This document shows positions 5,298 to 25,541 of a stretch of DNA of 27,043 nucleotides, piece after piece. The position numbers and the translations under genes were made by a program. Position 1 is the stretch's first letter. Each line of letters begins with the position of its first letter. Source of the stretch: a virus; the IMG/VR virus record IMGVR_UViG_3300042936_000477, positions 1-27,043 of that record. The stretch is one strand, 5' to 3'. Under the pieces are notes generated by a model that worked only from the letters and a program-made list of their open reading frames with translations, had not been told where the DNA came from and did no database searches.

Positions 5298-5309
5298 GCT
5301 ATTATTCGG

Positions 5310-5338
5310 TTGACTCTTACCCAAAACTAGTGTAGTGT
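5310..5338 (+). promoter_or_regulatory. Sigma70-like promoter with a leader duplicated at 19221
   Basis: TTGACT at 5310-5315, 17-nt spacer, TAGTGT at 5333-5338. The 23 nt at 5337-5359, covering the end of the -10 box and the start of the transcript, are identical to 19221-19243 behind another promoter. Drives the gene at 5370, whose Shine-Dalgarno CGGAG (5358-5362) ends the shared leader. Confidence 0.65.
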
Positions 5339-5369
5339 TAATTATAAGCTGAGAAAACGGAGATACAAT

Positions 5370-5735
5370 ATGTTGGTCAAGGTCATTCATTTTGATGCTA
5401 CTACGAGTGCAATGGACACTATTGCTCTCGTGAATGTCCCCAAGCACCAGCTGGGCTTCAAAGAAGCTGAACTGGATGCATGTGAATATGCATTTGCTCG
5501 TACTCAAAACATCTTTGGCTCTTGGAGCATGGGTTCGACTTTTGAAGATGGCGAACATAACGAAGATTTCAGCGAGAATGTTGAAGTTGTTATGCCTCTC
5601 TTGACCATCGACGGTCGCAAGTACGGTCATCGTAGTTCGATGATTGGCGATCTGTTTGTAGTTAACGGTAACATCTATATGTGTGATACGTTTGGCTTTA
5701 AGCGGTATGAAGAGGCGCCGCAACTCTGTGACTAA
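5370..5735 (+). CDS. Hypothetical protein (121 aa)
   Basis: Not recognised. The protein is acidic and soluble, without signal peptide or membrane segment. It opens with the strand LVKVIHFDAT and has an apparent alpha/beta composition with a C-terminal strand pair (GDLFVVNGNIYMCDTFGF). Codon use is richer in C- and G-ending codons than the neighbours, suggesting strong expression. It has its own promoter and a good Shine-Dalgarno. The start ATG at 5370 is the only one near that Shine-Dalgarno. The next gene begins 18 nt after its stop and has a late box overlapping that junction, so this is probably an early gene followed by genes that can also be read late. Confidence 0.75.
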   Translation: MLVKVIHFDATTSAMDTIALVNVPKHQLGFKEAELDACEYAFARTQNIFGSWSMGSTFEDGEHNEDFSENVEVVMPLLTIDGRKYGHRSSMIGDLFVVNGNIYMCDTFGFKRYEEAPQLCD

Positions 5736-5738
5736 ATA
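5733..5738 (+). promoter_or_regulatory. T4-type late promoter box (TAAATA)
   Basis: CTAAATA overlapping the stop codon of the preceding gene and 15 nt before the ATG at 5754; the latter has its own Shine-Dalgarno AGAGGAAA in between. Confidence 0.4.
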
Positions 5739-5753
5739 CTCTCAGAGGAAATT

Positions 5754-5918
5754 ATGAATTTAAACCGTTTAGGATCAGGTCGCAAACTGATACAGCAAAT
5801 TGCTGATCAAGGCTTAGTAAAAAATATGCGGTGGACACGCCAGCAGCAAAAAGATGCTATCAACCAGCGTAAAAATCCGCATACTAAAAAAACCAGAGAC
5901 GAAAGCCCGAAACAATGA
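5754..5918 (+). CDS. Small basic protein (54 aa)
   Basis: A 54-residue open frame with a clear Shine-Dalgarno (AGAGGAAA) 5 nt before the ATG. The product is strongly basic, with many Lys, Arg and Gln residues, and ends in a charged tail; it has no membrane segment. Its stop codon overlaps the start of the next gene in an ATGA arrangement (5915-5918), a sign of translational coupling. The composition suggests nucleic-acid or ribosome binding, but no family was recognised. Confidence 0.6.
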   Translation: MNLNRLGSGRKLIQQIADQGLVKNMRWTRQQQKDAINQRKNPHTKKTRDESPKQ

Positions 5919-6175
5919 GCGATGAAGTTACTAAATTCAAAAAGTCAAAGCGTATTGCTAAGACAGATGCAGTAATCAAACGCCAAACTCGTATCGCTAA
6001 ATCGTTAGGTGTAACACACTCACATAATCAACCTCATCGCTATGCAAAGCATCACGCACTAGACTGTGGCAATCCTAAATGCCAAGTGTGTCATTCAGAA
6101 AAGATTTTCAATAAGCCTACCCTACAAGAGAAACGTTTTGACCAAAGTTGCAAAACGGACAACCTAGACTCTTGA
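5915..6175 (+). CDS. Small basic protein with a Cys/His cluster (86 aa)
   Basis: The N-terminal half is Lys/Arg-rich. The second half carries a compact motif around residues 46-61, KHHALDCGNPKCQVCH, in which two HH/CH pairs and three Cys could bind zinc; a CGNPKC-x-x-C motif followed by TLQEKRFDQ recurs, as far as I recall, in small hypothetical proteins of many tailed phages. It is coupled to the upstream 54-residue gene by ATGA. The TGA stop at 6173-6175 forms the centre of the TTGACA -35 box of the next promoter. Function unknown. Confidence 0.7.
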   Translation: MSDEVTKFKKSKRIAKTDAVIKRQTRIAKSLGVTHSHNQPHRYAKHHALDCGNPKCQVCHSEKIFNKPTLQEKRFDQSCKTDNLDS

Positions 6176-6200
6176 CAACCCCCTAACTATCTGCTATAAC
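6172..6200 (+). promoter_or_regulatory. Sigma70-like promoter
   Basis: TTGACA at 6172-6177 (its TGA is the stop codon of the upstream gene), 17-nt spacer, TATAAC at 6195-6200. Downstream, CAAGGAG gives the Shine-Dalgarno of the membrane protein starting at 6230. Confidence 0.75.
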
Positions 6201-6229
6201 TTAATTGTTAATAACAAGGAGACCTACGT

Positions 6230-6406
6230 ATGGTTAAGATTATTGTTGCCTTTATCTCACTCTTTCTCATTTTCTTTTTTGGGATTGATATTTTTCGGAA
6301 GATGACCGGAAAAGAAAAAATTAGCTTGACAAAGTGGTTAGGCTATAGTACAGTGTGTTCGTTACTAGCAATTGGTGCTGTAACATTAATCGTTCTACTC
6401 TTTTAA
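6230..6406 (+). CDS. Small membrane protein with two transmembrane helices (58 aa)
   Basis: A 58-residue frame beginning with ATG after AAGGAG. Residues 3-20 (IIVAFISLFLIFFFGIDI) and about 40-58 (YSTVCSLLAIGAVTLIVLLF region) are strongly hydrophobic and are separated by a short charged loop with Lys, Arg and Glu. It lies 13 nt upstream of the Band-7 lipoprotein gene and shares its promoter, so it may be its membrane partner; that is inference from position. Family not recognised. Confidence 0.7.
   Translation: MVKIIVAFISLFLIFFFGIDIFRKMTGKEKISLTKWLGYSTVCSLLAIGAVTLIVLLF
6326..6354 (+). promoter_or_regulatory. Possible internal sigma70-like promoter
   Basis: TTGACA at 6326-6331, 17-nt spacer, TACAGT at 6349-6354, inside the small membrane gene and about 65 nt before the Band-7 gene. 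The -10 box is poor, so this is less certain than the others. Confidence 0.35.
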
Positions 6407-6419
6407 GGAATAAACTAAA

Positions 6420-7217
6420 ATGAATCGTATTGCTAAGATTGCCGTTCTCGCTGGCTTGATGGCCACGACTGCTGCGTGTACTCGTATTGAAACTGGTGAA
6501 GTTGGCGTTCGTCGCGGCTTTGATAAGCAGATTCAAACTACTGAACTTCAACCTGGTTCAATCAACCAGACTATGATCGGTGAAGTTCTCACGTTCCCAA
6601 CTAAGGATGTTCAAGTTGATGTAAGTGATTTGACCCCGCTTGCTGCTGATAACTCAACTGTTGCTGACTTTGATATGGCAGTAATCTATTCAATCAACCC
6701 AACAAGTGCTGCTGAAATCTATATTGAAAAGAATCGCGGATTTCACGCCGAAACTGAAGATGGCGACACTCTGTTGATGTATAACTACATTCGTCAGCTT
6801 GGTCGTAATGCTGCATACAAGGTTGCTCGTCGTTATGAGTCGCTTAAGATGGCTGACAACCGTGCTGAAATTGAACAACTTGTTCGTCAAGAAATCGTTG
6901 CTAGCCTCGCTGCTGAAAAGCTAGATGGTGCAATTTCAATCTCACAGGTTCTCGTTCGTCAGGTTAAGCCTGCTGCGAATATCGTAGCATCAGCTAACCT
7001 TTTGGTTGAGGCACAAAATGCTGAAAAGCAGAAGCAGGTAGAAGTTCGTACTGCAAAGCTTGAAGCCGAACGTATTGCTGCTCTTAATGCTAATGCTGGC
7101 GCAACGAAGTACATGGAAGCAACTGCTCTTGTGACGATTGCCGAAGCTGTCAAGGAAGGCAAGGTCAATACGATCATCGTTCCTTACGACTTTAAGGGTA
7201 TCGTTAACGTAAAGTAA
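6420..7217 (+). CDS. SPFH/Band-7 domain lipoprotein
   Basis: A 265-residue protein. Residues 1-20 look like a lipoprotein signal peptide, with a hydrophobic core and TAAC at 17-20, so the mature form would be anchored by lipid at Cys20 outside the inner membrane. Residues about 25-190 have the Band-7/SPFH pattern (EVGVRRGF, then VQVDVSDLTPL, an AVIYSI strand, and a C-terminal ISQVLVRQV). Residues about 190-230 form a charged alanine-rich coiled coil typical of these proteins (EAQNAEKQKQVEVRTAKLEAER). Stomatin and prohibitin relatives scaffold membrane microdomains and control proteases. A phage copy may protect or reorganise the envelope during infection, which is inference. It is followed by a strong terminator. 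Confidence 0.77.
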   Translation: MNRIAKIAVLAGLMATTAACTRIETGEVGVRRGFDKQIQTTELQPGSINQTMIGEVLTFPTKDVQVDVSDLTPLAADNSTVADFDMAVIYSINPTSAAEIYIEKNRGFHAETEDGDTLLMYNYIRQLGRNAAYKVARRYESLKMADNRAEIEQLVRQEIVASLAAEKLDGAISISQVLVRQVKPAANIVASANLLVEAQNAEKQKQVEVRTAKLEAERIAALNANAGATKYMEATALVTIAEAVKEGKVNTIIVPYDFKGIVNVK

Positions 7218-7882: not shown

Positions 7883-8773
7883 ATGTCAATACTTATATTG
7901 TCTAAAAAAGACGAGGACGAATATGAAAATCGTCGGCTCGTAGAAAGTCTTCGTGACTTAGGCATCCCTGCAACCATTTATCATCCTGATAAATTTGATG
8001 TCATAGTCGGTAAGAATACTGGCTATGGCATCAAATACAATGGACAAGAGTTTGACATGCCGAAACTCGTACTAACTCGTACAGGCTCGGGTACTACAGA
8101 GTTTATCACTGCAATAGTTAGACAGTTTGAAGAAGAAAATGTTCGTTGCATTAATTCATCGCTTAGTGTAGAAATTGCAAAAGATAAAATGAGGTCTCAT
8201 CAACTACTAGCAAGTCATGGATTGCCTATTCCAAACACAATGCTTGTGCGGTTTCCCGTAGAAGTAGACATTGTTGACAATATGATAGGATGGCCCTGTG
8301 TCGTTAAAATTATCAGTGGCAGCTATGGCGAAGGTATATATCTATGTGAAAGCAAAACGTCATTCAAGAAAATGATGGAGTTTGTTGGTAATTTGGACAC
8401 TCCGAAGATTTTACTAGTGCAAGAATATATTGATGCTAAGCCCGGAGAAGACCTGCGAGTATTCGTTATAGGTGGCAAGGTCATCGGGGCAATGAAGCGT
8501 CACGCACCCGAAGGTGACTTTAGAGCAAACATATCAGCAGGCGGTCGCGGCGAACCATTTGAGGTCAATAATGAGATTGACTATCTAGCTAGAGAGGCTG
8601 CTAGAATTTGCGGATTAGACATAGCTGGTATTGATTTACTCTTTGACAAAGATGGATACAAGATATGTGAGGCTAACTCTGCTCCTGGTTTCGAAGGATT
8701 TGAAAACTATTGTCAGGTAGATATTGCAGGGCAGATTGCAGAATACATCAAATATAAGCTAGGTATGATCTGA
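7883..8773 (+). CDS. ATP-grasp ligase, RimK-like (alpha-L-glutamate ligase family)
   Basis: A 296-residue enzyme the size of E. coli RimK (300), which adds glutamates to the C-terminus of ribosomal protein S6. Visible family features are an N-terminal pre-ATP-grasp domain, the nucleotide part WPCVVKIISGSYGEGI, VQEYI, DLRVFVIGGKVIGAMKR, the substrate segment FRANISAGG and the metal-binding end CEANSAPGFEG. The order and spacing follow RimK closely. Two in-frame options exist only at 7883; the overlapping ATG at 7879 is in another frame. It begins a run of enzymes (oxygenase, PP-loop ATPase, protease, oxygenase), so its substrate could be a phage peptide rather than S6; this cannot be told from sequence. 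Confidence 0.87.
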   Translation: MSILILSKKDEDEYENRRLVESLRDLGIPATIYHPDKFDVIVGKNTGYGIKYNGQEFDMPKLVLTRTGSGTTEFITAIVRQFEEENVRCINSSLSVEIAKDKMRSHQLLASHGLPIPNTMLVRFPVEVDIVDNMIGWPCVVKIISGSYGEGIYLCESKTSFKKMMEFVGNLDTPKILLVQEYIDAKPGEDLRVFVIGGKVIGAMKRHAPEGDFRANISAGGRGEPFEVNNEIDYLAREAARICGLDIAGIDLLFDKDGYKICEANSAPGFEGFENYCQVDIAGQIAEYIKYKLGMI

Positions 8774-11198: not shown

Positions 11199-12935
11199 AT
11201 GTCCGTGATTGTTACATTTGATACCCACGAAAATTATGCAGCCTTTGCTGCAAAGACCGGACTTGCGGTCACTGAAGGTGCAACCTCAGTTCAAATTCCT
11301 TGGGGAAAGCTAAAAGTTGCTAAGAATAGTGTCGGCGCAGTATCTTTTGCTCACAGTGAAAGCGAAACTACCGATACAGTAGAATTCATCATGAAGGGCG
11401 ACATCACACACGCTCAAGTCAGTGAGTTGATTACAGTCACCGCAGATTTAGGTAATGGATTTTATCATATTGAAACTAGTCAAGGACTAGCACTATTTGA
11501 TTTAGTAGATGGACTTGATCCAGTTTCTGCCGAACACGTAGTATTTCATGCAATATCTTCAATCGACGGCGTAAATCCAGAACAAGTAGGAATCGATCCG
11601 TTAAGCACAGATGGTCAGTGGGCAAGAATTCGTGTTGCTAGTACATATCGTCCTCTACTCAGTAGTTTTGAATATTATGACGATCTTGTAACTAAGAGCG
11701 TTCCTGAAATCTATCTAGCAGACTCCGGCGTAAATTGGAATCATGAAGAATTTGCAGGTACCGACCATGCTGATTTTTGGAAAGCTTCTATTTTTTCAAA
11801 TTTTGACGGTCAGATGGGTCACGGCACGTTAGTCGCATCTGCAATATTTGGAAAAAATGTAGGTATTGCTAAAAACGTCAAAGTTCTTAATTGTAAGATA
11901 AAAGGTCCAGAAGGTAGTGCTAACTTTGTAGAGTTAGGTAACCTAATAGATGCAATCATTGCAGAAACAGTAGCCAAACCAAATGTCACCCGCATCTTCA
12001 ATGCTTCTTGGGGAGTAGATGAGAATGTTTGGTTAGAAGCTAAATTTAGACAGCTATTAGATGCTGGAGTGACAGTAGTTTGTGCTGCCGGTAACTCTGG
12101 CGTTGATGTTGATACTATTACCCCTGCAGGTATGCCAGAGGTAATTACAGTTGGTGCAACTGATCGTTATGATATTCCTGCCGGCTTTAACAACATCGCT
12201 CCGACTGATAGTGGCCTTACTACTAACTACGGACAACGTCTAGATATTTTTGCCCCCGGCGACCATGTTGCACTTGCTGATAAAGACGGCGGCTATATGA
12301 TTAGCTCAGGTACATCTATTGCTGCCGGATATGTGTCAGGTGCTGCCGCACAAATTGCAGCACTATTTGAAAACAACCTACCAAATCCACTTCTACTCAC
12401 TAAGATTCTTGACAGTTCTACCAAAGACGCAATCTTGTTCGATGATGACAGATTTAGTGACAATCAAAACAAAATAGTACACTTAATCGGTACAAAAGAT
12501 GTGCAGGCAAATTCATTAGATCTGTATTTAGGAGCGTTCAATGTTACTACAGAACTATTCAACTTAGACCTAAATACAATTATTGATACTTCTCACTACA
12601 CAAAATTGTTACCTAGCGAAGCATTTAACTGGTCAATTTTGTTTGAACAAGAAGACTATGATACACTATATAGAGAATTCACTGTCCTAGATAGCTCGTC
12701 AGGACAATTAGTAGCAAATAAACCAACCGTTCAATTAGATGAAGGTGAAATTATTAGAATGGTTAGATTTAAGGCGTATGCAACAAGTGATACAGTTGCA
12801 CTACAGTCTCCTTGGATCTTATTCTTCCAAGTAGACCAAACTATTGATCCGGCTACAGTGAATGTTGACATCACCAGAGCGTTGTCAGAAACTAATAGCT
12901 CTAGTATTTTCTTATTTACACCAGAACTTAAGTAA
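11199..12935 (+). CDS. Subtilisin-like serine protease (S8 family)
   Basis: A 578-residue protease with the complete catalytic set: Asp175 in LADSGVN, His208 in GHGTLVA, oxyanion Asn299 in CAAGNSG and Ser373 in SGTSIAAG. The first 150 residues are a non-conserved domain that may act as inhibitor or targeting part, and about 160 residues after the catalytic core form a C-terminal extension. No signal peptide is visible, so it should act in the cytoplasm or in the virion. T4-like phages use an unrelated prohead protease, so this is an extra enzyme, possibly for maturation of a phage protein or peptide. It is followed 3 nt later by an oxygenase gene without its own Shine-Dalgarno. Confidence 0.9.
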   Translation: MSVIVTFDTHENYAAFAAKTGLAVTEGATSVQIPWGKLKVAKNSVGAVSFAHSESETTDTVEFIMKGDITHAQVSELITVTADLGNGFYHIETSQGLALFDLVDGLDPVSAEHVVFHAISSIDGVNPEQVGIDPLSTDGQWARIRVASTYRPLLSSFEYYDDLVTKSVPEIYLADSGVNWNHEEFAGTDHADFWKASIFSNFDGQMGHGTLVASAIFGKNVGIAKNVKVLNCKIKGPEGSANFVELGNLIDAIIAETVAKPNVTRIFNASWGVDENVWLEAKFRQLLDAGVTVVCAAGNSGVDVDTITPAGMPEVITVGATDRYDIPAGFNNIAPTDSGLTTNYGQRLDIFAPGDHVALADKDGGYMISSGTSIAAGYVSGAAAQIAALFENNLPNPLLLTKILDSSTKDAILFDDDRFSDNQNKIVHLIGTKDVQANSLDLYLGAFNVTTELFNLDLNTIIDTSHYTKLLPSEAFNWSILFEQEDYDTLYREFTVLDSSSGQLVANKPTVQLDEGEIIRMVRFKAYATSDTVALQSPWILFFQVDQTIDPATVNVDITRALSETNSSSIFLFTPELK

Positions 12936-12938
12936 CGC

Positions 12939-13721
12939 ATGACAAAAATAACCCCGATCGAGATTTCGGTAAATCCTAGATATGAAATCGGTGTAACAAA
13001 ATTAACTGGATACCTGTTAGAAGATTTGCTTACACCAAAAGAGTTTGAGTCACTGCTAAGTTACTGGGAACAATTCCATGTACACGGGATAGACTGGGAC
13101 AAGACCGTATATTATTTTAAGGGCAAAGCCCACGCTACAGCTAATCAGCGAACCTTTTTTGACTTGTATGATAGAAAGATATTTGATCTTCCTGAAAAAC
13201 AAGAATGGTACCATCAAACTAAAGATACAATATATGATTGGGCACGAGAAACATTAGGTAGAACCATTCATCCTAGAATTTTTCAAATTTTAGAAAAGGT
13301 AAAAACATTCCCGCCATTCAATAGTGAACCTGACAAGTGGATTCCTGTCAGAGGCATTATTAATGTTTTGGCTCACGAGAAAATATTAGAATATCATATT
13401 GATGCAGAATCAATCATATACAACGCTCCATTGAATCAAATTGACCAGTACAGCATTACCATATATTTAAATTCAGTTTCAGATGGTGGAGAATTTTGGA
13501 TAGACGGCGACCCAGGATTTGTATATCGCCCCGTACCAAATAGTGCTTTTGTGTTTAACGGCGGCAAAGCATTACACGGCGTAAGTATGAACTTAGACAA
13601 AGATCGCAACACTAGAAAAGCAATCACGTTTAGATTAGTCAGTGTTGATTCGTTATTGCTTCCGGGAGACCCTGATAAGTTCCTAGTGAAAACACCATCT
13701 CTTGACGAAATTAAAAATTAA
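12939..13721 (+). CDS. Fe(II)/2-oxoglutarate oxygenase, prolyl-hydroxylase type
   Basis: A 260-residue protein. The iron site reads HID in LEYHIDAES (near residue 147) and the distal His in ALHGVSMN (near 212), followed by an Arg-x-x-x-T-F strand (RKAITFRL) that would hold 2-oxoglutarate. The segment ITIYLNSVSDGGEFWI is the usual core strand pair of the P4H class. An N-terminal region of about 120 residues has no recognised domain. The start ATG lies 3 nt after the subtilase stop, without Shine-Dalgarno, so it is probably translated by coupling. Substrate unknown. Confidence 0.77.
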   Translation: MTKITPIEISVNPRYEIGVTKLTGYLLEDLLTPKEFESLLSYWEQFHVHGIDWDKTVYYFKGKAHATANQRTFFDLYDRKIFDLPEKQEWYHQTKDTIYDWARETLGRTIHPRIFQILEKVKTFPPFNSEPDKWIPVRGIINVLAHEKILEYHIDAESIIYNAPLNQIDQYSITIYLNSVSDGGEFWIDGDPGFVYRPVPNSAFVFNGGKALHGVSMNLDKDRNTRKAITFRLVSVDSLLLPGDPDKFLVKTPSLDEIKN

Positions 13722-13727
13722 TTCACA

Positions 13728-13739
13728 TATAAATAAATA
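13728..13739 (+). promoter_or_regulatory. Late promoter, TATAAATA plus overlapping TAAATA
   Basis: A perfect T4 late octamer TATAAATA at 13728-13735 overlaps a second TAAATA at 13734-13739 that ends 5 nt before the ATG at 13745. No Shine-Dalgarno is present. Confidence 0.65.
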
Positions 13740-13744
13740 CTATC

Positions 13745-13975
13745 ATGAAAAAGATGTACACAAACAATCCTATAATAGAAACAGAAATAATTGAGTTTGA
13801 TAAAAAAGAACTTGATGCCGAAAAGCGTATTAAAGTTTTAGAGGAAAAGGTTCGCATGTTAAGCGAACAATTGCACAAGATGGCTTCTACACTCAATCTT
13901 AATAGCAGACAGATTCGTAAACAGAACACCGACATTAATAATGTTACAACAGCGGTCCGCAGTAAGTTTAGCTAA
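13745..13975 (+). CDS. Small coiled-coil protein (76 aa)
   Basis: Residues about 20-50 form a clear heptad pattern (KRIKVLEEKVRMLSEQLHKM), so the protein is probably a parallel or antiparallel oligomer; the C-terminal third is polar with Asn and Arg. No membrane segment or enzyme motif. It starts 5 nt after a late promoter box without Shine-Dalgarno (predicted leaderless mRNA). The next late box lies across its stop codon. Function unknown; an assembly chaperone or scaffold is possible. Confidence 0.65.
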   Translation: MKKMYTNNPIIETEIIEFDKKELDAEKRIKVLEEKVRMLSEQLHKMASTLNLNSRQIRKQNTDINNVTTAVRSKFS

Positions 13976-13977
13976 AT
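13972..13977 (+). promoter_or_regulatory. Late promoter box of the PlcP/LpxH-like operon
   Basis: CTAAATA overlapping the stop codon of the coiled-coil gene and ending 6 nt before the ATG at 13984; no Shine-Dalgarno. Confidence 0.55.
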
Positions 13978-13983
13978 AGCTGT

Positions 13984-14769
13984 ATGTCACAGAAAACCTA
14001 CAGAACAATTTTTATCAGCGATGTCCATTTGGGTACTAAATCCTGTAAAGCAGAACTTCTCAACAACTTTCTAAAGCACAATACTTGTGAGACATTATAT
14101 CTTGTAGGTGACATTATAGATGCATGGAAAATGCAGCAAAATAAACTACGCTGGAAACAATCACATACTAATGTGGTCCGTAGGATTCTTGGTCACAGTA
14201 AAAGAGATACTGATGTGATTTATGTTGCCGGCAACCATGACGAATTCTTGCGCCCTATGATTCCTTATGCAGCAAGTTTTGGCAGAATGCAAATCGCTAA
14301 CATGCATACTCATTTGGGCGTAGATGGCAAAAAGTATCTCGTAGTACACGGCGACCTGTTTGATGGCATCACTAGATTGGCTCCTTGGTTAAGCTTTTTG
14401 GGTGATAAAGCGTATGATTTTGTGCTAGAACTAAACAGTAGGTTCAACTGGATTAGACACCGGATGGGCTTCGGGTATTGGTCGCTATCAAAGTTTCTCA
14501 AACATAAAGTCAAAAAGGCAGTAGACTTCATGTTTAAGTTTGAACAAAACGTTACTGCATACTGTAAGCGTAAAGGTTATGATGGTGTAATATGCGGTCA
14601 TATCCATAATGCTGAAATAAAAATGATAGACGGTATTGTTTATATGAATGACGGTGACTGGGTAGAATCATGCACTGCATTAGTAGAGCATCACGATGGA
14701 CGCTGGGAAATCATTACTTGGCAGGAGATGAAAAATGAAGGTACAAACACTAGTAAGAAAGATGTATGA
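13984..14769 (+). CDS. Metallophosphoesterase of the LpxH/PlcP type
   Basis: A 261-residue calcineurin-like phosphoesterase with all metal motifs: SDVHLG (Asp13, His15), GDIID (Asp43), GNHDE (Asn84, His85), HGDLFD (His122) and GHIHNAE near residue 206. Such proteins are commonly annotated UDP-2,3-diacylglucosamine hydrolase (LpxH), but close relatives in alphaproteobacteria are PlcP, a phospholipase C that splits phosphatidylcholine and phosphatidylethanolamine to diacylglycerol during phosphate starvation. The neighbouring glycosyltransferase favours the PlcP reading, because plcP and a GT4 diacylglycerol glycosyltransferase (agt) are paired in many marine bacteria. The 3' end overlaps a 43-residue gene by 35 nt. 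The choice between LpxH and PlcP is not settled by sequence alone. Confidence 0.78.
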   Translation: MSQKTYRTIFISDVHLGTKSCKAELLNNFLKHNTCETLYLVGDIIDAWKMQQNKLRWKQSHTNVVRRILGHSKRDTDVIYVAGNHDEFLRPMIPYAASFGRMQIANMHTHLGVDGKKYLVVHGDLFDGITRLAPWLSFLGDKAYDFVLELNSRFNWIRHRMGFGYWSLSKFLKHKVKKAVDFMFKFEQNVTAYCKRKGYDGVICGHIHNAEIKMIDGIVYMNDGDWVESCTALVEHHDGRWEIITWQEMKNEGTNTSKKDV

Positions 14770-14866
14770 AGCTATTTTGAATAAAGACCAAAAAAAAGAA
14801 AAAGAGCTTTGGATGAAGTCATTAAAAAAATCGCTCAAGCATAAAAACACTTTCGTTATAAAATGA
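14735..14866 (+). CDS. Small basic protein bridging the operon (43 aa)
   Basis: An open frame of 43 codons that starts inside the end of the phosphoesterase gene, with GGAGATGAAAAATG placing a Shine-Dalgarno (GGAG) 7 nt upstream, and stops in an ATGA overlap with the glycosyltransferase start. The product is highly basic, about a third Lys/Arg, with an amphipathic helix pattern (LVRKMYEAILNKDQKKEKEL) that could lie on a membrane surface. The double overlap suggests it is real and keeps the three genes translationally coupled. No family recognised. Confidence 0.55.
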   Translation: MKVQTLVRKMYEAILNKDQKKEKELWMKSLKKSLKHKNTFVIK

Positions 14867-15849
14867 AAACGATACTTGTAATTACTGATATTGTTGATGG
14901 ACAAGTGAATGGTGTAGCAACCACATTTGAAAATCTAAAAATTCTGGCTGGAAAAGATAACTTTAAGATAGAGTTCATCAATCCGCATTGTTTCTATAAT
15001 TTTTCAGCACCTAGATATCCTGAGGTAAAGCTTTCTATACCACTTAGGATAGGTAAGAAGATTAAAGATATAAATCCAGACTATGTGCATATTGCAACAG
15101 AAGGACCTATTGGTCTTGCTGCTAAACTTTGGCTTGATAAACACAAGCGGAAATACAATACAAGCTATCATACTAAGTTTCCAGAATTTGTAGAAAGAAT
15201 ATACCACATACCTGAAAAATATACATACAACTATTTGCGCTGGTTCCACAAACATAGCGGTGTTGTACTAACTACTACTCAGACTATGGTAGAAGAATTA
15301 AAAGACAATGGCTTTACTGGCAATATACTGTCATGGACCCGAGGAGTAGATACTAAGATATTTTACCCTAGAACAAAAACATCTGGTCTAACCTTAATCA
15401 ATGTGGGTAGAGTCAGTAAAGAAAAAGGACTAGATGATTTTTGTTCACTGGCGTATCCTAATGCTAAAAAGATTGTAGTAGGCGATGGTCCTTATAGAAA
15501 AGAACTAGAATCAAAATATCCTAATGTAGAATTTGTTGGGGTAAAGCGTGGCAACGAGTTAGCAGAATATTATGCTAACAGTGATGTATTCGTGTTTCCA
15601 AGCAGAGAAGATACATTCGGTATTGTAATGATTGAATCAATGGCTTGTGGTGTCCCTGTCGCAGCTTACAATGTTACTGGTCCTAAAGATGTTATTGACC
15701 AACACGAAACAGGCTTTATGGATAATAGTCTGTCTGTTGCTATTGACCACTGTTTAGAACTTAATAGGACCAGTGTTTACGAAAAAAGCAAAAAGTGGAC
15801 TTGGGAAAACTGCTGGGATATTTTCAAAAATAATCTAGTCACCATATAA
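14863..15849 (+). CDS. Glycosyltransferase family 4, possible diacylglycerol glycosyltransferase
   Basis: A 328-residue GT-B enzyme. The N-terminal glycine-rich turn (TDIVDGQVNGVATTFENL region, residues 8-25) is the form found in MgtA/SQD2/Agt-type lipid glycosyltransferases. The C-terminal donor domain has LINVGRVSKEKGLDD, VVGDGPY and the E-x7-E-type motif SREDTFGIVMIESMACG. ATGA overlap with the 43-residue gene ties it to the upstream phosphoesterase. If the latter is PlcP, this enzyme would put glucose or glucuronate on the released diacylglycerol. Alternatives are LPS or capsule glycosylation. The gene ends just before a run of eight A and the next promoter; no terminator hairpin is seen. 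Confidence 0.85.
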   Translation: MKTILVITDIVDGQVNGVATTFENLKILAGKDNFKIEFINPHCFYNFSAPRYPEVKLSIPLRIGKKIKDINPDYVHIATEGPIGLAAKLWLDKHKRKYNTSYHTKFPEFVERIYHIPEKYTYNYLRWFHKHSGVVLTTTQTMVEELKDNGFTGNILSWTRGVDTKIFYPRTKTSGLTLINVGRVSKEKGLDDFCSLAYPNAKKIVVGDGPYRKELESKYPNVEFVGVKRGNELAEYYANSDVFVFPSREDTFGIVMIESMACGVPVAAYNVTGPKDVIDQHETGFMDNSLSVAIDHCLELNRTSVYEKSKKWTWENCWDIFKNNLVTI

Positions 15850-19875: not shown

Positions 19876-19951
19876 TGCCCGATAGATCAATTGGTAGATC
19901 GACTGACTCTGACTCAGTAGGTTCTAGGTTCGAGCCCTAGTCGGGCATCCA
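19876..19951 (+). tRNA. tRNA-Gln (CTG)
   Basis: Complete cloverleaf, anticodon CTG at 19909-19911, acceptor starts with T1-A72 as in bacterial tRNA-Gln, CCA encoded. Reads CAG. Begins 6 nt after the long inverted repeat ending at 19869. Confidence 0.9.
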
Positions 19952-19999
19952 AAATAGTTTACACGATGCTGCAAAGCATATATATTATACAAGTTACAT

Positions 20000-20073
20000 T
20001 GCCCCTTCGTCTAAAGGTAAGACGCTAGTTTTTGGTACTAGCTATCGAGGTTCGAATCCTCGGGGGGCATCCA
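20000..20073 (+). tRNA. tRNA-Gln (TTG)
   Basis: Anticodon TTG at 20032-20034, T1-A72 acceptor end, strong T arm, CCA encoded. Reads CAA and by wobble CAG, so the CTG tRNA upstream is partly redundant. Confidence 0.92.
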
Positions 20074-20081
20074 AACTTAAT

Positions 20082-20157
20082 GCCGCTTTAGCTCATTTGG
20101 TAGAGCAACGGTTTAGTAAACCGTAGGTGGCGGGTTCAAATCCTGCAAGCGGCACCA
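20082..20157 (+). tRNA. tRNA-Thr (AGT)
   Basis: Clean cloverleaf; the anticodon loop TTAGTAA gives AGT at 20115-20117. A at position 34 is rare for Thr in bacteria. Body resembles bacterial tRNA-Thr (GCCG start, A73). CCA encoded. Confidence 0.88.
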
Positions 20158-20163
20158 TTTCAC

Positions 20164-20240
20164 GGATCCTTAGTTCAGCCGGATAGAGCGCCTGTCTTCG
20201 AAACAGGATGTCGGGGGTTCGAATCCCTCAGGGTCCACCA
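20164..20240 (+). tRNA. tRNA-Arg (TCG)
   Basis: Anticodon TCG at 20198-20200, all stems pair, one G-U in the acceptor stem, CCA encoded. Reads CGA and CGG. Confidence 0.93.
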
Positions 20241-20247
20241 AGTTAAT

Positions 20248-20324
20248 GCCCGCGTAGCTCAGCTGGATAGAGCATCAGATTACGAATCTGAGGGTCGGAG
20301 GTTCGAATCCTTCCGCGGGCACCA
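20248..20324 (+). tRNA. tRNA-Arg (ACG)
   Basis: Anticodon ACG at 20282-20284 (expected to become inosine through host TadA), stable stems, CCA encoded. Reads CGT, CGC and CGA. Confidence 0.94.
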
Positions 20325-20331
20325 ATTTCAT

Positions 20332-20405
20332 GTACGCTAAGTGTTACGGTAGCACGACTGGTTCCAACCCAGTTAGCGTGGGTTCGACTCCTACAGCGTA
20401 TGCCA
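20332..20405 (+). tRNA. tRNA-Trp (CCA), atypical copy
   Basis: Five-pair anticodon stem ACTGG/CCAGT, anticodon CCA at 20364-20366, G73 as in tRNA-Trp, CCA encoded. Odd: A instead of U at position 8 and an unusual D arm. A more ordinary tRNA-Trp is at 26922. Confidence 0.78.
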
Positions 20406-20411
20406 GTTTAT

Positions 20412-20489
20412 GGTGATTGTAGCTCAGTTGGTTAGAGCGTCGGTTTGTGGTACCGAATGTCGCGGGTTCGAGTCCCGTCTTTCACCCCA
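20412..20489 (+). tRNA. tRNA-His (GTG)
   Basis: Anticodon GTG at 20447-20449; the extra 5' G(-1) facing C73, the tRNA-His hallmark, is encoded at 20412. The acceptor stem has two T-T mismatches (pairs 5-68 and 6-67). CCA encoded. Confidence 0.86.
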
Positions 20490-20496
20490 GTTTCAT

Positions 20497-20571
20497 GCAC
20501 CCTTAGCTCAGCGGTAGAGCATTTCCTTGACATGGAAAAGGTCACTGGTTCAAACCCAGTAGGGTGTACCA
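20497..20571 (+). tRNA. tRNA-Val (GAC)
   Basis: Anticodon GAC at 20529-20531, CCA encoded. The first acceptor pair is G1-T72, a wobble shared with the other tRNA-Val at 26361. Reads GTC and GTT. Confidence 0.9.
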
Positions 20572-20582
20572 TTATTACTAGG

Positions 20583-20611
20583 TTGACAAGCTACTTGATA
20601 TATAGTATACT
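20583..20611 (+). promoter_or_regulatory. Sigma70-like promoter after the first tRNA block
   Basis: TTGACA at 20583-20588, 17-nt spacer, TATACT at 20606-20611. An ATG at 20617 lies at the predicted start point and opens an eight-codon frame that ends in ATGA overlap with the gene at 20640. Confidence 0.75.
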
Positions 20612-20639
20612 AGTATATGCACAAAGAGATAAACATTGT

Positions 20640-20831
20640 ATGAAAGAACATGAACCGCACTATCACGAAGATAAGAAGACTGGACTACTAGTTCGGTGTA
20701 TGAATTCGTGTTCAAATTTGATTACTGATTATAGATTTTGGATTGGCGTAACTATCAGCTATCCACTAGAACATTTTCTCTGGGAACATGTCTGGCCCTT
20801 CAAGCTAGTAATGCAGTTTCTCGGACTTTAA
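20640..20831 (+). CDS. Small hypothetical protein (63 aa)
   Basis: The first tRNA block ends at 20571 and the frame is open through it, but the ATG at 20640 is the first plausible start behind the promoter at 20583. The N-terminal 20 residues are polar with His and Glu; the rest is aromatic and partly hydrophobic (FWIGVTISYPLEHFLWEHVW), perhaps a re-entrant or single membrane helix. There is no Shine-Dalgarno; translation may depend on the eight-codon leader frame (20617-20643) that overlaps it by ATGA. Not recognised. Confidence 0.5.
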   Translation: MKEHEPHYHEDKKTGLLVRCMNSCSNLITDYRFWIGVTISYPLEHFLWEHVWPFKLVMQFLGL

Positions 20832-20969
20832 CTTATGCCGGCGAGTGATACCCACTACAATAGTGACGAACATACCGTTACCGCTGGCTCCATTCTTATG
20901 CGTCCATCTAGCAATATACCTTCCAAAAGTGTACCAAGTAGAGAAAAAAAGTGGGCGCGCCATATTCAA

Positions 20970-21046
20970 CGGGGTATAGCGCAGTCTGGTAGCGCACTTG
21001 TCTGGGGGACAAGTGGTCGTCGGTTCAAATCCGGCTACCCCGACCA
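20970..21046 (+). tRNA. tRNA-Pro (GGG)
   Basis: Anticodon GGG at 21004-21006, C1-G72 start as in tRNA-Pro, CCA encoded at 21044-21046 directly against the stop codon of the opposing gene. Reads CCC and CCT. Confidence 0.93.
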
Positions 21047-21670
21047 TTAACGAGTGAGTGTTCTCATTATGTGATGATGTTTAATTTCCTCATCCTGATA
21101 CATTTCAGGGATTGTATGGAACCAAATTACAATCGCATAACGAACGCCTTGAACTTTCTTGACACCGTGAAGATATTGCCAACTGCCAGGATACATAAGA
21201 ATGTCTCCTGCACTTGGTCTCTTTTCAATGTCAAAGAACGGAAAATATACTTCTCCCCCTTGATAGTCATCATTTAGATATGCTACGCAAGTTATGTCGC
21301 GGTTGATGTTACTTCTGCGAACAATTGTACCATCTACATATTGACCATCGATGTGAGGCCAATAGTGAGTTCCATCAGAATAGTGAAGAAAGTCTATAGA
21401 GTGTGTGTTACACTCTACGCTATATTGATGCTCTACGAGCTCCTTACAGTGTCTTACGAGCTGGTCAACATTATCAGCGAAGTTTGTATAGTCTACGAAG
21501 TTGGCGGTACAGATGTCAGGATTGTGAATAGCAATATATTGGTCATCCACTATCTTGCCAACGGTCGCTTGAGTTGACTTTGCTTCTTGTGCAGAATTCA
21601 GTAAGGTATTGATTAGATCATTATCAACTGATGCTGATAGATGCTTAATCTGTCTGGGGTCAAAATGCAT
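21047..21670 (-). CDS. Fe(II)/2-oxoglutarate oxygenase, prolyl-4-hydroxylase type
   Basis: A 207-residue P4Hc-class enzyme. Iron ligands are HID in YWPHIDGQ (near residue 110) and His in YLHGVKKV (near 167), followed by the 2-oxoglutarate-binding Arg in GVRYAIVIW. The strand block ITCVAYLNDDYQGGEVYFP is the usual core, and GDILMYPG precedes the last His as in the family. Related enzymes are frequent in marine T4-like phages, where the substrate is unknown. It lies on the reverse strand between two tRNA genes, its stop touching tRNA-Pro, and its ATG 4 nt after a reverse TAAATA box without Shine-Dalgarno. Confidence 0.82.
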   Translation of the reverse strand: MHFDPRQIKHLSASVDNDLINTLLNSAQEAKSTQATVGKIVDDQYIAIHNPDICTANFVDYTNFADNVDQLVRHCKELVEHQYSVECNTHSIDFLHYSDGTHYWPHIDGQYVDGTIVRRSNINRDITCVAYLNDDYQGGEVYFPFFDIEKRPSAGDILMYPGSWQYLHGVKKVQGVRYAIVIWFHTIPEMYQDEEIKHHHIMRTLTR

Positions 21671-21674
21671 ATGT

Positions 21675-21680
21675 TATTTA
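21675..21680 (-). promoter_or_regulatory. Late promoter box, reverse strand
   Basis: CATAAATA on the reverse strand ending 4 nt before the ATG of the oxygenase at 21670; leaderless geometry. Confidence 0.55.
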
Positions 21681-21746
21681 TGAGTACTCCCGGTGATACT
21701 GCACAAATGTTACTGGGGCAGGGGCTGTGCAGGCCCCGAGAGTTTT

Positions 21747-21822
21747 GGGGCCTTAGCTCAGTTGGTAGAGCGTTTGTCTGGCAGACAAAAGGTCAAGGGT
21801 TCGATTCCCTTAGGCTCCACCA
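21747..21822 (+). tRNA. tRNA-Ala (GGC)
   Basis: Anticodon GGC at 21780-21782, stable stems with one G-U in the acceptor, CCA encoded. A GC-rich hairpin (GGGGCT/GGCCCC, 21721-21737) lies just upstream. The stop of the opposing gene is 3 nt past the CCA. Confidence 0.93.
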
Positions 21823-21825
21823 ATT

Positions 21826-22527
21826 CTAGTTAATTGTATTAAGTAGCTTGTGTGCAAATATATGATTACATTCTATTCCGGGGTGAGCTAGGTCTCTTGC
21901 TAACGACTCATTGGTTCGCAATTCGGAACTATTAACATTGATAAACTTTATGTTTCGTTCTGTGCATAACATTTTTATCCCTAATAGATTTTTTTCTTCA
22001 TTGAAAAAAAGATTGTCCTCACATCCGGCCCAAATTTTATAAATCTCGGGACTTTTAAAATGACCAAAATTCCACGGGCCATATAGCCTTGGACTACCGT
22101 CGCTAAGCTCAAATCTTCCCGCCGGAGGTGTTAGGTAGACTACAATTTTTGGTTTTATAAGGTCAATGTGCCCATGACATAATCTAAATGCAGTGTCCGG
22201 GGAACCAGCAGCAATTCCTAAATTTGCACACTTTAAATTGAGATTATCAGAAACAATCTTAGGCCAAATAGTATTAATTGGCAATCCTACTCCAATTGTT
22301 AAACTACAACCCAAAAACATTGCAGTAGGCACCTCAGTAAATTCATCGCATCTAAATCCAAATGAATTAAAACGGTATGTGATATCAGAATCTATCCAAT
22401 TATAACGTTCCAATTCAGCACGACGCCTAATGAGATTGTGTTTGTATAGCTGTTCTTTGTCCGACGAAAGCCAACTTAGAGTTTGATTTGCGTATTTTTT
22501 ATAATAGGAATCATAGTTTGGAATCAT
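21826..22527 (-). CDS. SGNH-hydrolase-like protein (GCS variant)
   Basis: A 233-residue protein. The frame is open further upstream through tRNA-Phe, but the ATG at 22527, 5 nt after a reverse TAAATA box, is the only sensible start. Residues about 66-90 read FLGCSLTIGVG, the GCS form of the SGNH block I seen in many phage proteins; the block II Gly is in NLGIAAGSPD, and DLAHPG near the C-terminus supplies the Asp-His pair. The block III Asn is not obvious (LTPPAG), so activity is uncertain. It opposes the tRNAs around it. Confidence 0.66.
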   Translation of the reverse strand: MIPNYDSYYKKYANQTLSWLSSDKEQLYKHNLIRRRAELERYNWIDSDITYRFNSFGFRCDEFTEVPTAMFLGCSLTIGVGLPINTIWPKIVSDNLNLKCANLGIAAGSPDTAFRLCHGHIDLIKPKIVVYLTPPAGRFELSDGSPRLYGPWNFGHFKSPEIYKIWAGCEDNLFFNEEKNLLGIKMLCTERNIKFINVNSSELRTNESLARDLAHPGIECNHIFAHKLLNTIN

Positions 22528-22532
22528 ATTTA

Positions 22533-22538
22533 TATTTA
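22533..22538 (-). promoter_or_regulatory. Late promoter box, reverse strand
   Basis: ATAAATA followed by a second overlapping AAATA on the reverse strand; the first ends 5 nt before the ATG at 22527. No Shine-Dalgarno. Confidence 0.55.
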
Positions 22539-22548
22539 TTAGTTTAAT

Positions 22549-22624
22549 GCTCCTGTAGCTCAGTTGGTAGAGCACCTGATTGAAGATCAGGGTGTCGGCG
22601 GTTCGAACCCGTCTGGGAGCACCA
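22549..22624 (+). tRNA. tRNA-Phe (GAA)
   Basis: Anticodon GAA at 22582-22584, complete stems (two G-U pairs at the base of the acceptor), CCA encoded. Confidence 0.93.
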
Positions 22625-22776
22625 GATTTTACTCGTGTGTGTACGGTTACCATATGTGACCCTGTTTTATTCTCAAACCAAACAGGAGTGTACCTGATGC
22701 CCGTAGCAGTACTATTGAGTTAGTATCAGTAACTAAATTTGAGACACTAGTTACGGCGAGTAAATACATTTAACAT
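22625..22776 (+). ncRNA. Structured spacer between tRNA-Phe and tRNA-Leu
   Basis: No reading frame. Hairpins: GGTTAC/GTGACC (22645-22650 with 22656-22661), CTGTTT/AAACAG (22662-22667 with 22680-22685), TACTA/TAGTA (22710-22714 with 22721-22725) and GTAACTA/TAGTTAC (22729-22735 with 22748-22754), then a TAAATA box at 22761. Could be a small stable RNA or processing structure. Confidence 0.3.
22761..22766 (+). promoter_or_regulatory. Late promoter box before tRNA-Leu
   Basis: GTAAATA ending 10 nt before tRNA-Leu (TAG). Confidence 0.4.
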
Positions 22777-22861
22777 GCGGCTGTGGCGGAATTGGTAGAC
22801 GCCCTGGTTTTAGGTACCAGTATCGTAAGGTGTGGGGGTTCGAGTCCCTTCAGCCGCACCA
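22777..22861 (+). tRNA. tRNA-Leu (TAG)
   Basis: Type II cloverleaf with long variable arm, anticodon TAG at 22811-22813, GCGGCTG/CAGCCGC acceptor, CCA encoded. Reads CTA and CTG. Confidence 0.93.
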
Positions 22862-22964
22862 AATTTCAGAAATCGGAAGAAGTCATCGGTCTAGAACGAT
22901 GCTTCAAGGCACACTATGAGGGTCACTATAACTAGAACCTGAACTGCTGAACCGATACCAATTT
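22862..22964 (+). other. TRNA-like or structured spacer
   Basis: Between two tRNA-Leu genes. ATCGG (22873-22877) can pair with CCGAT (22952-22956), which is followed by ACCA, and an eight-pair stem with one bulge surrounds GTCTAGAA (stem CATCG/CGATG). This looks like an eroded tRNA or a small RNA with a tRNA-like end; no T loop is recognisable. Confidence 0.25.
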
Positions 22965-23050
22965 GCCCCGATGGTGGAATCGGTAGACGCGGAAGATTCA
23001 AAATCTTCTGCCCTTAGGGCGTGGGGGTTCAAGTCCCTCTCGGGGCACCA
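22965..23050 (+). tRNA. tRNA-Leu (CAA)
   Basis: Type II cloverleaf, anticodon CAA at 22999-23001, well-formed variable arm TGCCCTTAGGGCG, CCA encoded. Reads TTG. Confidence 0.94.
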
Positions 23051-23056
23051 AACTGC

Positions 23057-23062
23057 TAAATA
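23057..23062 (+). promoter_or_regulatory. Late promoter box
   Basis: CTAAATA in the middle of an imperfect palindrome (AAACT...AGTTT, 23051-23070), 17 nt before the ATG at 23080; Shine-Dalgarno TTGGAG between. Confidence 0.45.
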
Positions 23063-23079
23063 GTAGTTTGGAGATTCAC

Positions 23080-23736
23080 ATGTTTAGAACACTTATATTA
23101 TCAGCAGCATTATTATTTTCTTTCCCTGCATATGCTCAGGTTGAGAGAGAAACATCAGGTTCATTAGGCGGAACAGTTATCAATGATGATAACATTGTTT
23201 TGACAGGTGCATTCAAGCACGTTACTGACACCGGCCCTAGAGAATACTCATTTGAAAGTGATATTCTTTATAAGAGTGCTAACGGAGTAACATCTAGAGA
23301 ACAGATTAACGCATTTGCTAAAGTCAATCAGGACATCCATCCTAAGCACTATGTTCAAGTAGGTGTTCGCTATAGACACGACCCTAGAACATTCTCAGAA
23401 GATCAAGCAGTCTACAGCATTGGCCATGGCTTCAGAATCGTAAAGACTGATAAGACTAAGATATCAAATGAACTTAGCGTTGGTTACAAGCATGGCACGG
23501 GCGGATACAGCGATGTAGTAGTTCGTGAAAGTGTATGGATTAGTCATAATCTTAGCAAAACAGTTTCAGTTTCAAACAAATTTATGATTGAACAAGGTTC
23601 TAGAACCTTCATTCAGAACAAAGCTGAAATCAAATATAAGTTGAGCGAGAAAACAAGCTTCTCAATTCAAGACTTGTACACAAAAGATTGGCGTGAAGAT
23701 AACACAATATCTTTTGCATTCACTTTTAAAATCTAA
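23080..23736 (+). CDS. Exported beta-barrel protein, DUF481/YdiY-like
   Basis: A 218-residue protein with a signal peptide (residues 1-19, ending AYA). The mature part is a series of alternating amphipathic strands (YSFESDILYKS, YVQVGVRYRHDP, SNELSVGYKHG, NKAEIKYKL, ISFAFTFKI), ending in aromatic-rich strands as in outer-membrane barrels. The order resembles DUF481 proteins (E. coli YdiY, salt-induced outer-membrane protein). In a phage it might alter the host surface, for example to block superinfection; that is inference. TTG at 23068 is in frame but the ATG has GGAG 6-9 nt upstream. Its stop is 1 nt before tRNA-Ile. Confidence 0.65.
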   Translation: MFRTLILSAALLFSFPAYAQVERETSGSLGGTVINDDNIVLTGAFKHVTDTGPREYSFESDILYKSANGVTSREQINAFAKVNQDIHPKHYVQVGVRYRHDPRTFSEDQAVYSIGHGFRIVKTDKTKISNELSVGYKHGTGGYSDVVVRESVWISHNLSKTVSVSNKFMIEQGSRTFIQNKAEIKYKLSEKTSFSIQDLYTKDWREDNTISFAFTFKI

Positions 23737-23737
23737 T

Positions 23738-23831
23738 ACTCCCTTAGTTTAGCGGTAAAACACCTGGCTTATATCCAGCATCGTCTCCAGATTAGAGAGC
23801 GTCACAGGTTCAAATCCTGTAGGGAGTACCA
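23738..23831 (+). tRNA. tRNA-Ile (TAT) with an unusually long variable arm
   Basis: Anticodon TAT at 23770-23772 by the loop CTTATAT between CTGG and CCAG. Acceptor ACTCCCT/AGGGAGT is perfect, T arm normal, CCA encoded. The variable region (about 23780-23803) is some 24 nt and folds TCTC/GAGA, as in type II tRNAs, but Ile tRNAs are type I. One C-C mismatch at the top of the anticodon stem. Identity as Ile rests only on the anticodon. Confidence 0.78.
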
Positions 23832-23834
23832 TAA

Positions 23835-23840
23835 TAAATA
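23835..23840 (+). promoter_or_regulatory. Late promoter box next to an ATG (leaderless start)
   Basis: ATAAATA beginning 3 nt after tRNA-Ile and ending 5 nt before the ATG at 23846; no Shine-Dalgarno. Confidence 0.55.
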
Positions 23841-23845
23841 GACAT

Positions 23846-24499
23846 ATGATAGTATGGATATTCAGAGAACAGCGTTCCGGTAGTACCGCATTTACTAGTC
23901 TAGTTGCCAATCGGTTAAATCGCATAGACAAGTTTGTTAGATACCCGGAAGACATAGAATTAGTAAAGAATATTCCTAATCCGGAAGACTACGTTTTCAG
24001 TACACATTTTTATAATTTCATAGAAATGATGAACTCAGTTGATAAACCGATTACGTTGATTAGATGTGCTAGGAAAGATAAAATAGAACGTTGCATAAGT
24101 TACTTAGTTGCTAAGTATAAGGCTAAACAGATTATAAACGATATCAATCCTTGGAATATCATTCGCAAAGAAGGTATGTTAGATCATGAAACTTTCATGT
24201 CTAAAATTGAACCAACAGTATTTTCCAAAAAAGAAATTTACAACTACTTACAGTATTGTACTGAAATGAATCAATACTGGGAAAGTTATGCAGCCTCGTA
24301 TCAAAATTTCACTGTCTTTTATGAAGACTTATGCACTGACACTGGAGTTGATTTGCCTATGTTAGGTTTGACCTCATTAAGCATAACAGATGATGATACG
24401 ATAACCATCAAGATGCCTTCATATAAAGAGCAGATATGCATAAATTATGACATGGTTTCTCGTTGGATATCAAAATATTATTCGGAAAATAGAATATGA
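23846..24499 (+). CDS. Sulfotransferase-like protein
   Basis: A 217-residue protein. The N-terminus FREQRSGSTAFTSLVANRL has the 5'-phosphosulfate loop pattern (RSGST) of sulfotransferases right after the first strand. LIRCARKDKIERCISYLVA in the middle matches the 3'-phosphate-binding Arg/Ser segment, and FYEDL follows where the family has a conserved Y/F-E-D-L. It would transfer sulfate from PAPS to a sugar or lipid; an envelope target is plausible but not shown. No signal peptide. It fits exactly between tRNA-Ile (15 nt upstream) and tRNA-Leu (4 nt downstream) and is expected to have a leaderless mRNA. Confidence 0.65.
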   Translation: MIVWIFREQRSGSTAFTSLVANRLNRIDKFVRYPEDIELVKNIPNPEDYVFSTHFYNFIEMMNSVDKPITLIRCARKDKIERCISYLVAKYKAKQIINDINPWNIIRKEGMLDHETFMSKIEPTVFSKKEIYNYLQYCTEMNQYWESYAASYQNFTVFYEDLCTDTGVDLPMLGLTSLSITDDDTITIKMPSYKEQICINYDMVSRWISKYYSENRI

Positions 24500-24503
24500 T
24501 ATT

Positions 24504-24589
24504 GCCCAGGTGGTGGAATGGTAGACACGCAACGTTGAGGTCGTTGTGGACGAAAGTCCGTGAAAGTTCGAGTCTTTTCTTGGGCACCA
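24504..24589 (+). tRNA. tRNA-Leu (GAG)
   Basis: Type II cloverleaf, anticodon GAG at 24537-24539, variable arm GGAC/GTCC, weak A-T-rich T stem, CCA encoded. Reads CTC and CTT. Confidence 0.9.
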
Positions 24590-24600
24590 AAAGATTCTAG

Positions 24601-24629
24601 TTGACAATAAGGTCAATCTGATGTAATGT
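24601..24629 (+). promoter_or_regulatory. Sigma70-like promoter of the HNH gene
   Basis: TTGACA at 24601-24606, 17-nt spacer, TAATGT at 24624-24629. A TAAATA box (24659-24664) and the Shine-Dalgarno TAGGAG lie between it and the ATG at 24686, so both early and late expression are possible. Confidence 0.65.
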
Positions 24630-24685
24630 AAACTGACACTAAGGAATATCAGTTGAATTAAATATAGAAAGAAATAGGAGTTTTT

Positions 24686-25252: not shown

Positions 25253-25277
25253 CATTTATTTGTCAAGCTGCTATAAC
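25243..25277 (+). promoter_or_regulatory. Promoter with a 12-pair inverted repeat over its -35 box
   Basis: TTGACA at 25249-25254, 17-nt spacer, TATAAC at 25272-25277. AGCGGCTTGACA (25243-25254) pairs with TGTCAAGCTGCT (25261-25272) with one G-U, across a six-base loop. The stem includes the HNH stop codon. It may be an operator, or a hairpin ending the HNH mRNA. Confidence 0.7.
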
Positions 25278-25282
25278 AAGAT

Positions 25283-25288
25283 TAAATA
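25283..25288 (+). promoter_or_regulatory. Late promoter box before tRNA-Asn
   Basis: TTAAATA 15 nt before tRNA-Asn, just downstream of a sigma70-like promoter. Confidence 0.35.
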
Positions 25289-25303
25289 GTTTATAGAGTT
25301 TAT

Positions 25304-25378: not shown

Positions 25379-25386
25379 AACTTAAC

Positions 25387-25462
<76 letters not shown>

Positions 25463-25467
25463 TTTAA

Positions 25468-25522: not shown

Positions 25523-25541
25523 CAACACATAATAAGAGATT

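Follow-up and report, generated by a model that had tools for sequence, protein, structure and literature searches.

The DNA analysed here (the window) is a 27,043-base IMG/VR virus record which carries many metabolic genes and 22 tRNA genes. Three successive genes on its plus strand form the locus of interest. The first (13984..14769) encodes a PlcP-like metallophosphoesterase (phospholipase C-type) of 261 aa, identified from its ORF, Pfam match, motifs and tree position. The second (14735..14866) encodes a basic protein of 43 aa, recognised from its ORF and homologues and belonging to a small family of phage proteins with frequent linkage to plcP. The third (14863..15849) encodes an Agt-like GT4 glycosyltransferase of 328 aa (ORF, Pfam, tree and residues), a predicted diacylglycerol glycosyltransferase. 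The ORFs and their overlaps at 14735-14769 and 14863-14866 are as an earlier note on this sequence had described them. The latter consists of the letters ATGA (plus strand), in which the glycosyltransferase gene starts and the 43-aa gene stops, an arrangement consistent with translational coupling. A TAAATA promoter-like element (13973..13978, plus strand) lies 5 nt upstream of the plcP start codon with no Pho box beside it. Directly 5' of plcP is a 76-aa ORF (13745..13975, plus strand), preceded by TATAAATA and possibly part of the same transcript.

Description of the locus as phage-borne rests on the IMG/VR virus classification and on relatives' contigs that encode the T4-type major capsid protein Gp23, which was found on ten of 30 long relative contigs. 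In the window and its two nearest relatives' contigs, no gene for a capsid, portal or terminase protein was identified; a search for the T4 portal gave no match anywhere, controls included, and is uninformative. Comparison with the nearest relative (L002) gave dN 0.009 and dS 0.69 for the phosphoesterase gene (13984-14766), and dN 0.010 and dS 0.086 for the glycosyltransferase gene (14863-15846). As dN is low relative to dS in each case, both genes are under purifying selection. The unequal dS values are a hint of recombination between the two genes.

The 43-aa gene is real, since 44 distinct basic homologues of 43-53 aa were identified, most of them adjoining phage plcP. Those of the 43-aa kind mostly overlap the 3' end of the phosphoesterase gene, while a 52-aa kind is mostly located just 5' of it. 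About half of the copies of this family in long records lie away from plcP, and the protein is therefore only loosely tied to the pathway; a role as an obligatory third component is not supported, on the same grounds.

Other plus-strand genes of the window encode an S-adenosylmethionine synthetase (4140-5297), a Band 7/SPFH protein (6420-7217), a RimK-like ATP-grasp enzyme (7883-8773), a subtilase-family serine protease of 578 aa (11199-12935; Peptidase_S8, 3.5e-28) and a eukaryotic-type phosphomannomutase-like HAD protein, here in a phage (17011-17706; Pfam PMM, 2e-25). The tRNA genes are dispersed among small genes at 19876-26997 (plus strand) and include two for Trp(cca) and one for Ile(tat). 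A 958-aa protein of the window had no match in phage records.

Phosphoesterase and glycosyltransferase families

The phosphoesterase is a calcineurin-like metallophosphoesterase (Metallophos, 1.3e-12) with intact metal-binding motifs, as looked for in a PlcP: DVH, GDIID, GNHD, HGD and GHIH are all kept, in agreement with the earlier description of the gene as intact. Its scores against the LpxH equivalogs NF003743 and TIGR01854 (53.9 and 40.1 bits) are below the respective cut-offs of 134 and 190.35 bits. Phosphoesterases of bacterial plcP operons score equally low (43-54 bits), and a true LpxH of Pseudomonas alcaligenes, encoded in the genome that also contains L201, reaches 319-330 bits. A separate LpxH above the cut-off was present in six of the 12 bacterial genomes examined. 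Phylogenetic analysis placed the phage phosphoesterases in one clade (SH-aLRT 97), with bacterial phosphoesterases, mostly encoded with an adjacent GT4, as its neighbours and LpxH far from it. This is a quick-search tree in which the LpxH branches are long. As in the glycosyltransferase tree, its references are operon relatives, and the characterised PlcP and Agt proteins (S. meliloti, MED193, HTCC7211, PAO1) are not included. The protein of Synechococcus phage S-SRM01 falls outside the phage clade, and those of three MAG contigs (L163, L164 and L226) fall inside it. On none of these three contigs could further phage genes be clearly recognised; they may represent phage sequence that was binned with bacteria, or the outcome of gene transfer.

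Phage and bacterial phosphoesterases share 47-61% identity; published PlcPs of different genera are 46-47% identical (PMC8528852). A structure model of moderate confidence (pLDDT 77) has LpxH as its nearest solved fold (about 19% identity), and this match does not separate PlcP from LpxH. Grouping with LpxH, which would have refuted the earlier note, was not observed, the protein siding with plcP-operon proteins in the tree, and LpxH identity is rejected on the basis of the equivalog scores and the tree. As far as its sequence can tell, the enzyme is PlcP-like and not LpxH, no activity having been measured.

The glycosyltransferase matches Glycos_transf_1 (1.5e-24) and Glyco_transf_4 (3.3e-14), and its AlphaFold model (pLDDT 93) has GT4 enzymes as the nearest solved folds. 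When bacterial genomes were searched with the phage protein, the best match was the gene beside the phosphoesterase in 11 of 12. Its identity to these bacterial plcP-adjacent glycosyltransferases is about 35-45%. The phage proteins form a clade (SH-aLRT 100) nested in the plcP-adjacent enzymes and apart from the remaining GT4 enzymes that those genomes encode; the deepest split of this tree is weakly supported (75), and the placement of a 72-aa fragment (L277) within the phage clade is an artefact. Substitution of His104, Arg163, Asp256, Trp320 and further residues has been described to abolish the activity of the SAR11 enzyme GTcp (PMC8231724). All 14 GTcp residues considered (G16, G82, G85, H104, T162, R163, R190, K195, D256, T257, F258, G259, E264 and W320) are identical in the window protein, their positions having been mapped by motif without alignment of GTcp itself, and the residues of GTcp that contact diacylglycerol are kept. 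The earlier note would also have fallen had this protein grouped with LPS or capsule enzymes; it does not, and such an identity is rejected on the basis of the tree and the residues. Its assignment as Agt-like is thus supported, with glycosylation of diacylglycerol inferred.

Recurrence, linked genes and upstream motifs

A scan of viral contigs identified the phosphoesterase on at least 597 IMG/VR contigs, the shortest of a few kb and the longest of 525 kb, and a scan with the glycosyltransferase identified 153 contigs. Among phage records, relatives of the phosphoesterase were few: Pelagibacter phage Mosig has one (49% identity), as do S-SRM01 of Synechococcus (36%) and two phages that are uncultured. 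For loci found by the phosphoesterase alone, dereplicated at 97% identity and with at least 2.2 kb of downstream sequence present, a GT4 gene followed in 26 of 48, a GT2-type gene took its place in 14 and neither was present in eight. The pair recurs far beyond chance, and as a related glycosyltransferase gene lies just 3' of the phosphoesterase gene in 42 of 80 bacterial loci, the proposed likeness to the bacterial plcP-agt gene order holds for the window. At L080:4094-4968 and similar loci, the replacing glycosyltransferase is of GT2/GT21 type, often accompanied by a 56-aa gene.

Genes of phosphate acquisition were found near phage plcP. Five of 30 long phage records encode pstS: in four it is within 5 kb of the phosphoesterase gene, against 0.56 expected, and in the remaining one the distance is 5.0 kb. 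A single phage seems to account for two of these records, leaving four distinct ones, all within 5.1 kb (P about 2e-5). No pstS was found in the other 25, many of which are fragments. A fatty-acid desaturase gene was within 5 kb in seven of 17 records (expected 1.6, P 4e-4), and phoH, used as a control, showed no association (one of 20, expected 1.3). These P values are approximate because the records share ancestry and are not fully independent. In L096, phoX (1217-3439), pstS (3454-4500), the phosphoesterase gene (5096-5848) and the glycosyltransferase gene (6001-6981) follow one another on one strand, with an exact Pho box before phoX. In phage Mosig, the phosphoesterase gene is divergent from a PstS-family gene, and the intergenic region contains no box of the YTGTMAY-N4-YTGTMAY type.

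Upstream regions were first scored with the published Pho box consensus CTGTCATNNNNCTGTCAT (PMC8528852). At least ten of 14 positions matched in 24 of 112 phage phosphoesterase upstreams, versus 40 of 1313 other genes. A relaxed motif, YTGTMAY-N4-YTGTMAY, was picked after these hits had been seen. It was found exactly in 19 of 112 phosphoesterase upstreams and with up to one mismatch in 34 (null in shuffles, 0.02 and 0.29); on the other strand there were no exact copies and one within one mismatch. Before other genes it occurred exactly in eight of 1314 cases and with up to one mismatch in 15, five of the eight exact boxes preceding pstS and one the alkaline phosphatase gene phoX. When phosphoesterases were clustered at 90% identity, 16 of 58 clusters had an exact box. 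The same motif precedes bacterial plcP (35 of 78 upstreams at up to two mismatches, versus a null of 1.3). The boxes occur also at phosphoesterase loci with the GT2/GT21-type replacement. Such Pho-box-like repeats before phage plcP are, as motifs, new here; PhoB binding has not been shown. No Pho box with up to two mismatches was found in the window around 12,500-15,200 and in the 1.2 kb upstream of plcP, nor is one present in its nearest relatives, and any claim of PhoB regulation is therefore limited to other relatives.

Boxes with at most one mismatch that have TAAATA after them are separated from it by either 11 nt or 21-22 nt and by no other distance. In 50 of 111 phosphoesterase genes, TAAATA is found 10-12 nt ahead of the start codon, and Shine-Dalgarno-like motifs are rare there (five of 111). 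The window has the element on the plus strand at 13973, 13730, 8777 and 19386, about 5 nt before start codons mostly without a Shine-Dalgarno sequence, and in these contigs it is enriched also at -10 to -13 of other genes. Its position near start codons mostly lacking a Shine-Dalgarno sequence suggests leaderless transcripts from a phage late-type promoter.

Possible roles of the operon

We consider it probable that the three overlapping genes are an auxiliary metabolic cassette, the phage version of the PlcP-Agt lipid-remodelling pathway of bacteria, serving phosphorus scavenging. The genes are present and intact, their products fall in the expected subfamilies with catalytic residues kept, the operon recurs, and relatives have the Pho-box-like motif and the linkage to pstS. 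Because the phosphoesterase is PlcP-like and the glycosyltransferase nests with Agt-like enzymes while keeping the GTcp residues, the lipid-remodelling proposal of the earlier note is supported at the level of sequence. The phosphate-saving part of that proposal gains from the Pho boxes and from pstS and phoX near plcP, all in relatives, the flow of phosphate being inferred.

By hydrolysis, the PlcP-like enzyme would split host phospholipids (PG/PE lipid) into diacylglycerol and a head group that carries the phosphate. Its Agt-like partner, the GT4, would then move a sugar from a UDP-sugar onto diacylglycerol, giving a phosphorus-free glycolipid so that the membrane stays intact. Phosphorus for the phage's own DNA under host phosphate limitation would be the most likely gain. 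Enzyme activity, the sugar used and the benefit to the phage are likewise inferred. In many relatives host PhoB appears to switch the operon on via the Pho box; the window phage has only the phage-type TAAATA element and no such box. This absence, shared with the nearest relatives, counts against the scavenging reading, as do the eight of 48 loci without a nearby glycosyltransferase, the 14 with GT2 and the 25 of 30 long records in which pstS was not found.

Lipid remodelling may be real and serve membrane properties during infection (lysis timing, receptors or stability) rather than phosphorus supply. The clustering of fatty-acid desaturase genes near the phosphoesterase gene and the lack of a Pho box in the window would suit such a role, and in P. 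aeruginosa glycolipids and lipid renovation alter membrane proteins and polymyxin tolerance (PMC8528852, PMC9804370). We hold it to be unlikely, if still worth keeping in view, given the Pho boxes and the association with pstS and phoX in relatives. An LpxH acting in lipid A synthesis next to a glycosyltransferase modifying LPS, with an outer surface altered, for example, against superinfecting phages, is improbable. Both folds are indeed known from LPS pathways, LpxH structures are the closest solved folds to the phosphoesterase, GT4 is a broad family and viral surveys file lpxH-named genes under LPS biosynthesis; nevertheless, the phosphoesterase scores far under the LpxH cut-off and stands apart from true LpxH in the tree, the glycosyltransferase is apart from other GT4 enzymes, and the Pho boxes and pstS linkage would be left unexplained. 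No specific support was obtained for the surface change which the earlier note had offered as its alternative. That the glycosyltransferase modifies phage DNA bases or another phage product, with the phosphoesterase acting on nucleotides, is scarcely credible: DNA modification is common among phage glycosyltransferases, but the two proteins fall within families encoded in bacterial lipid operons, where the genes come in the same order, the diacylglycerol-contact residues of GTcp are kept, and a DNA-modifying enzyme finds no support.

Phages are phosphorus-rich and many aquatic hosts are phosphorus-starved; phages are known to respond with uptake genes (pstS, phoA) and by recycling host nucleotides. 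Many large aquatic phages have the pair, often with phosphate-uptake genes and Pho-like switches, and may therefore draw on host membranes as a source of phosphorus. A phage PlcP-Agt pathway, if true, would make the host membrane a further phosphorus store and tie viruses to lipid remodelling in nature. By rough estimate, the phospholipid phosphorus of a cell (millions to about 2e7 molecules) is comparable in magnitude to what a burst of phages with 200-kb genomes contains, at 4e5 phosphates per genome. A broader proposal stands evenly poised on present evidence: a widespread, overlooked cassette of plcP with GT4 or GT2, often with pstS, desaturase or phoX, would let large aquatic phages under host PhoB mine phospholipids for phosphorus, glycolipids replacing these, and viral 'lpxH' annotations would at least partly be this gene. 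A second look may thus be needed at viral genes that have been assigned to LPS synthesis as lpxH, and the phage pathway offers a way to test clearly whether host PhoB also controls genes of phages other than cyanophages.

Comparison with known systems

The PlcP-Agt lipid-remodelling cassette is established in bacteria. No description of phage plcP or plcP-agt was found in full-text searches of openly licensed papers; in two viral surveys lpxH appears among the auxiliary genes, assigned to LPS synthesis. The phage phosphoesterase resembles the phosphate-starvation phospholipases C (PlcPs) of S. meliloti, Phaeobacter MED193, SAR11 HTCC7211 and P. aeruginosa (PA3219) in belonging to a non-LpxH metallophosphoesterase subfamily, in its gene order with a GT4, and in the Pho-box-type motifs upstream of bacterial relatives and many phage copies. 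It differs in being phage-borne and in forming its own clade, 47-61% identical to bacterial relatives, with a window copy lacking the box and an activity only inferred. The glycosyltransferase has in common with Agt/GTcp (A. tumefaciens Atu2297, HTCC7211 PB7211_960, P. aeruginosa PA3218) the GT4 family, the catalytic His-Asp pair, motifs of the GRVxxEK and FPSxxDTFG type and an adjoining plcP. It is distinct in its identity of about 35-45% to bacterial plcP-adjacent enzymes and in the GT2 which some phages have instead.

Mosig_00120 of the isolated Pelagibacter phage Mosig EXVC030M is a 49% identical phosphoesterase adjoining a PstS-family gene, whereas it has neither a glycosyltransferase nor such a box beside it and is annotated as UDP-2,3-diacylglucosamine hydrolase. 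Control of phage phosphate genes by host PhoB is established in cyanophages (pstS in P-SSM2; S-PM2d, PMC10976474), to which the present phages are alike in having host-type Pho-box-like motifs and, on some of the phosphoesterase-encoding contigs, pstS. Unlike in the cyanophages, and with PhoB binding still to be shown, the box here is of the proteobacterial CTGTCAT type and what lies behind it is a putative lipid-remodelling operon.
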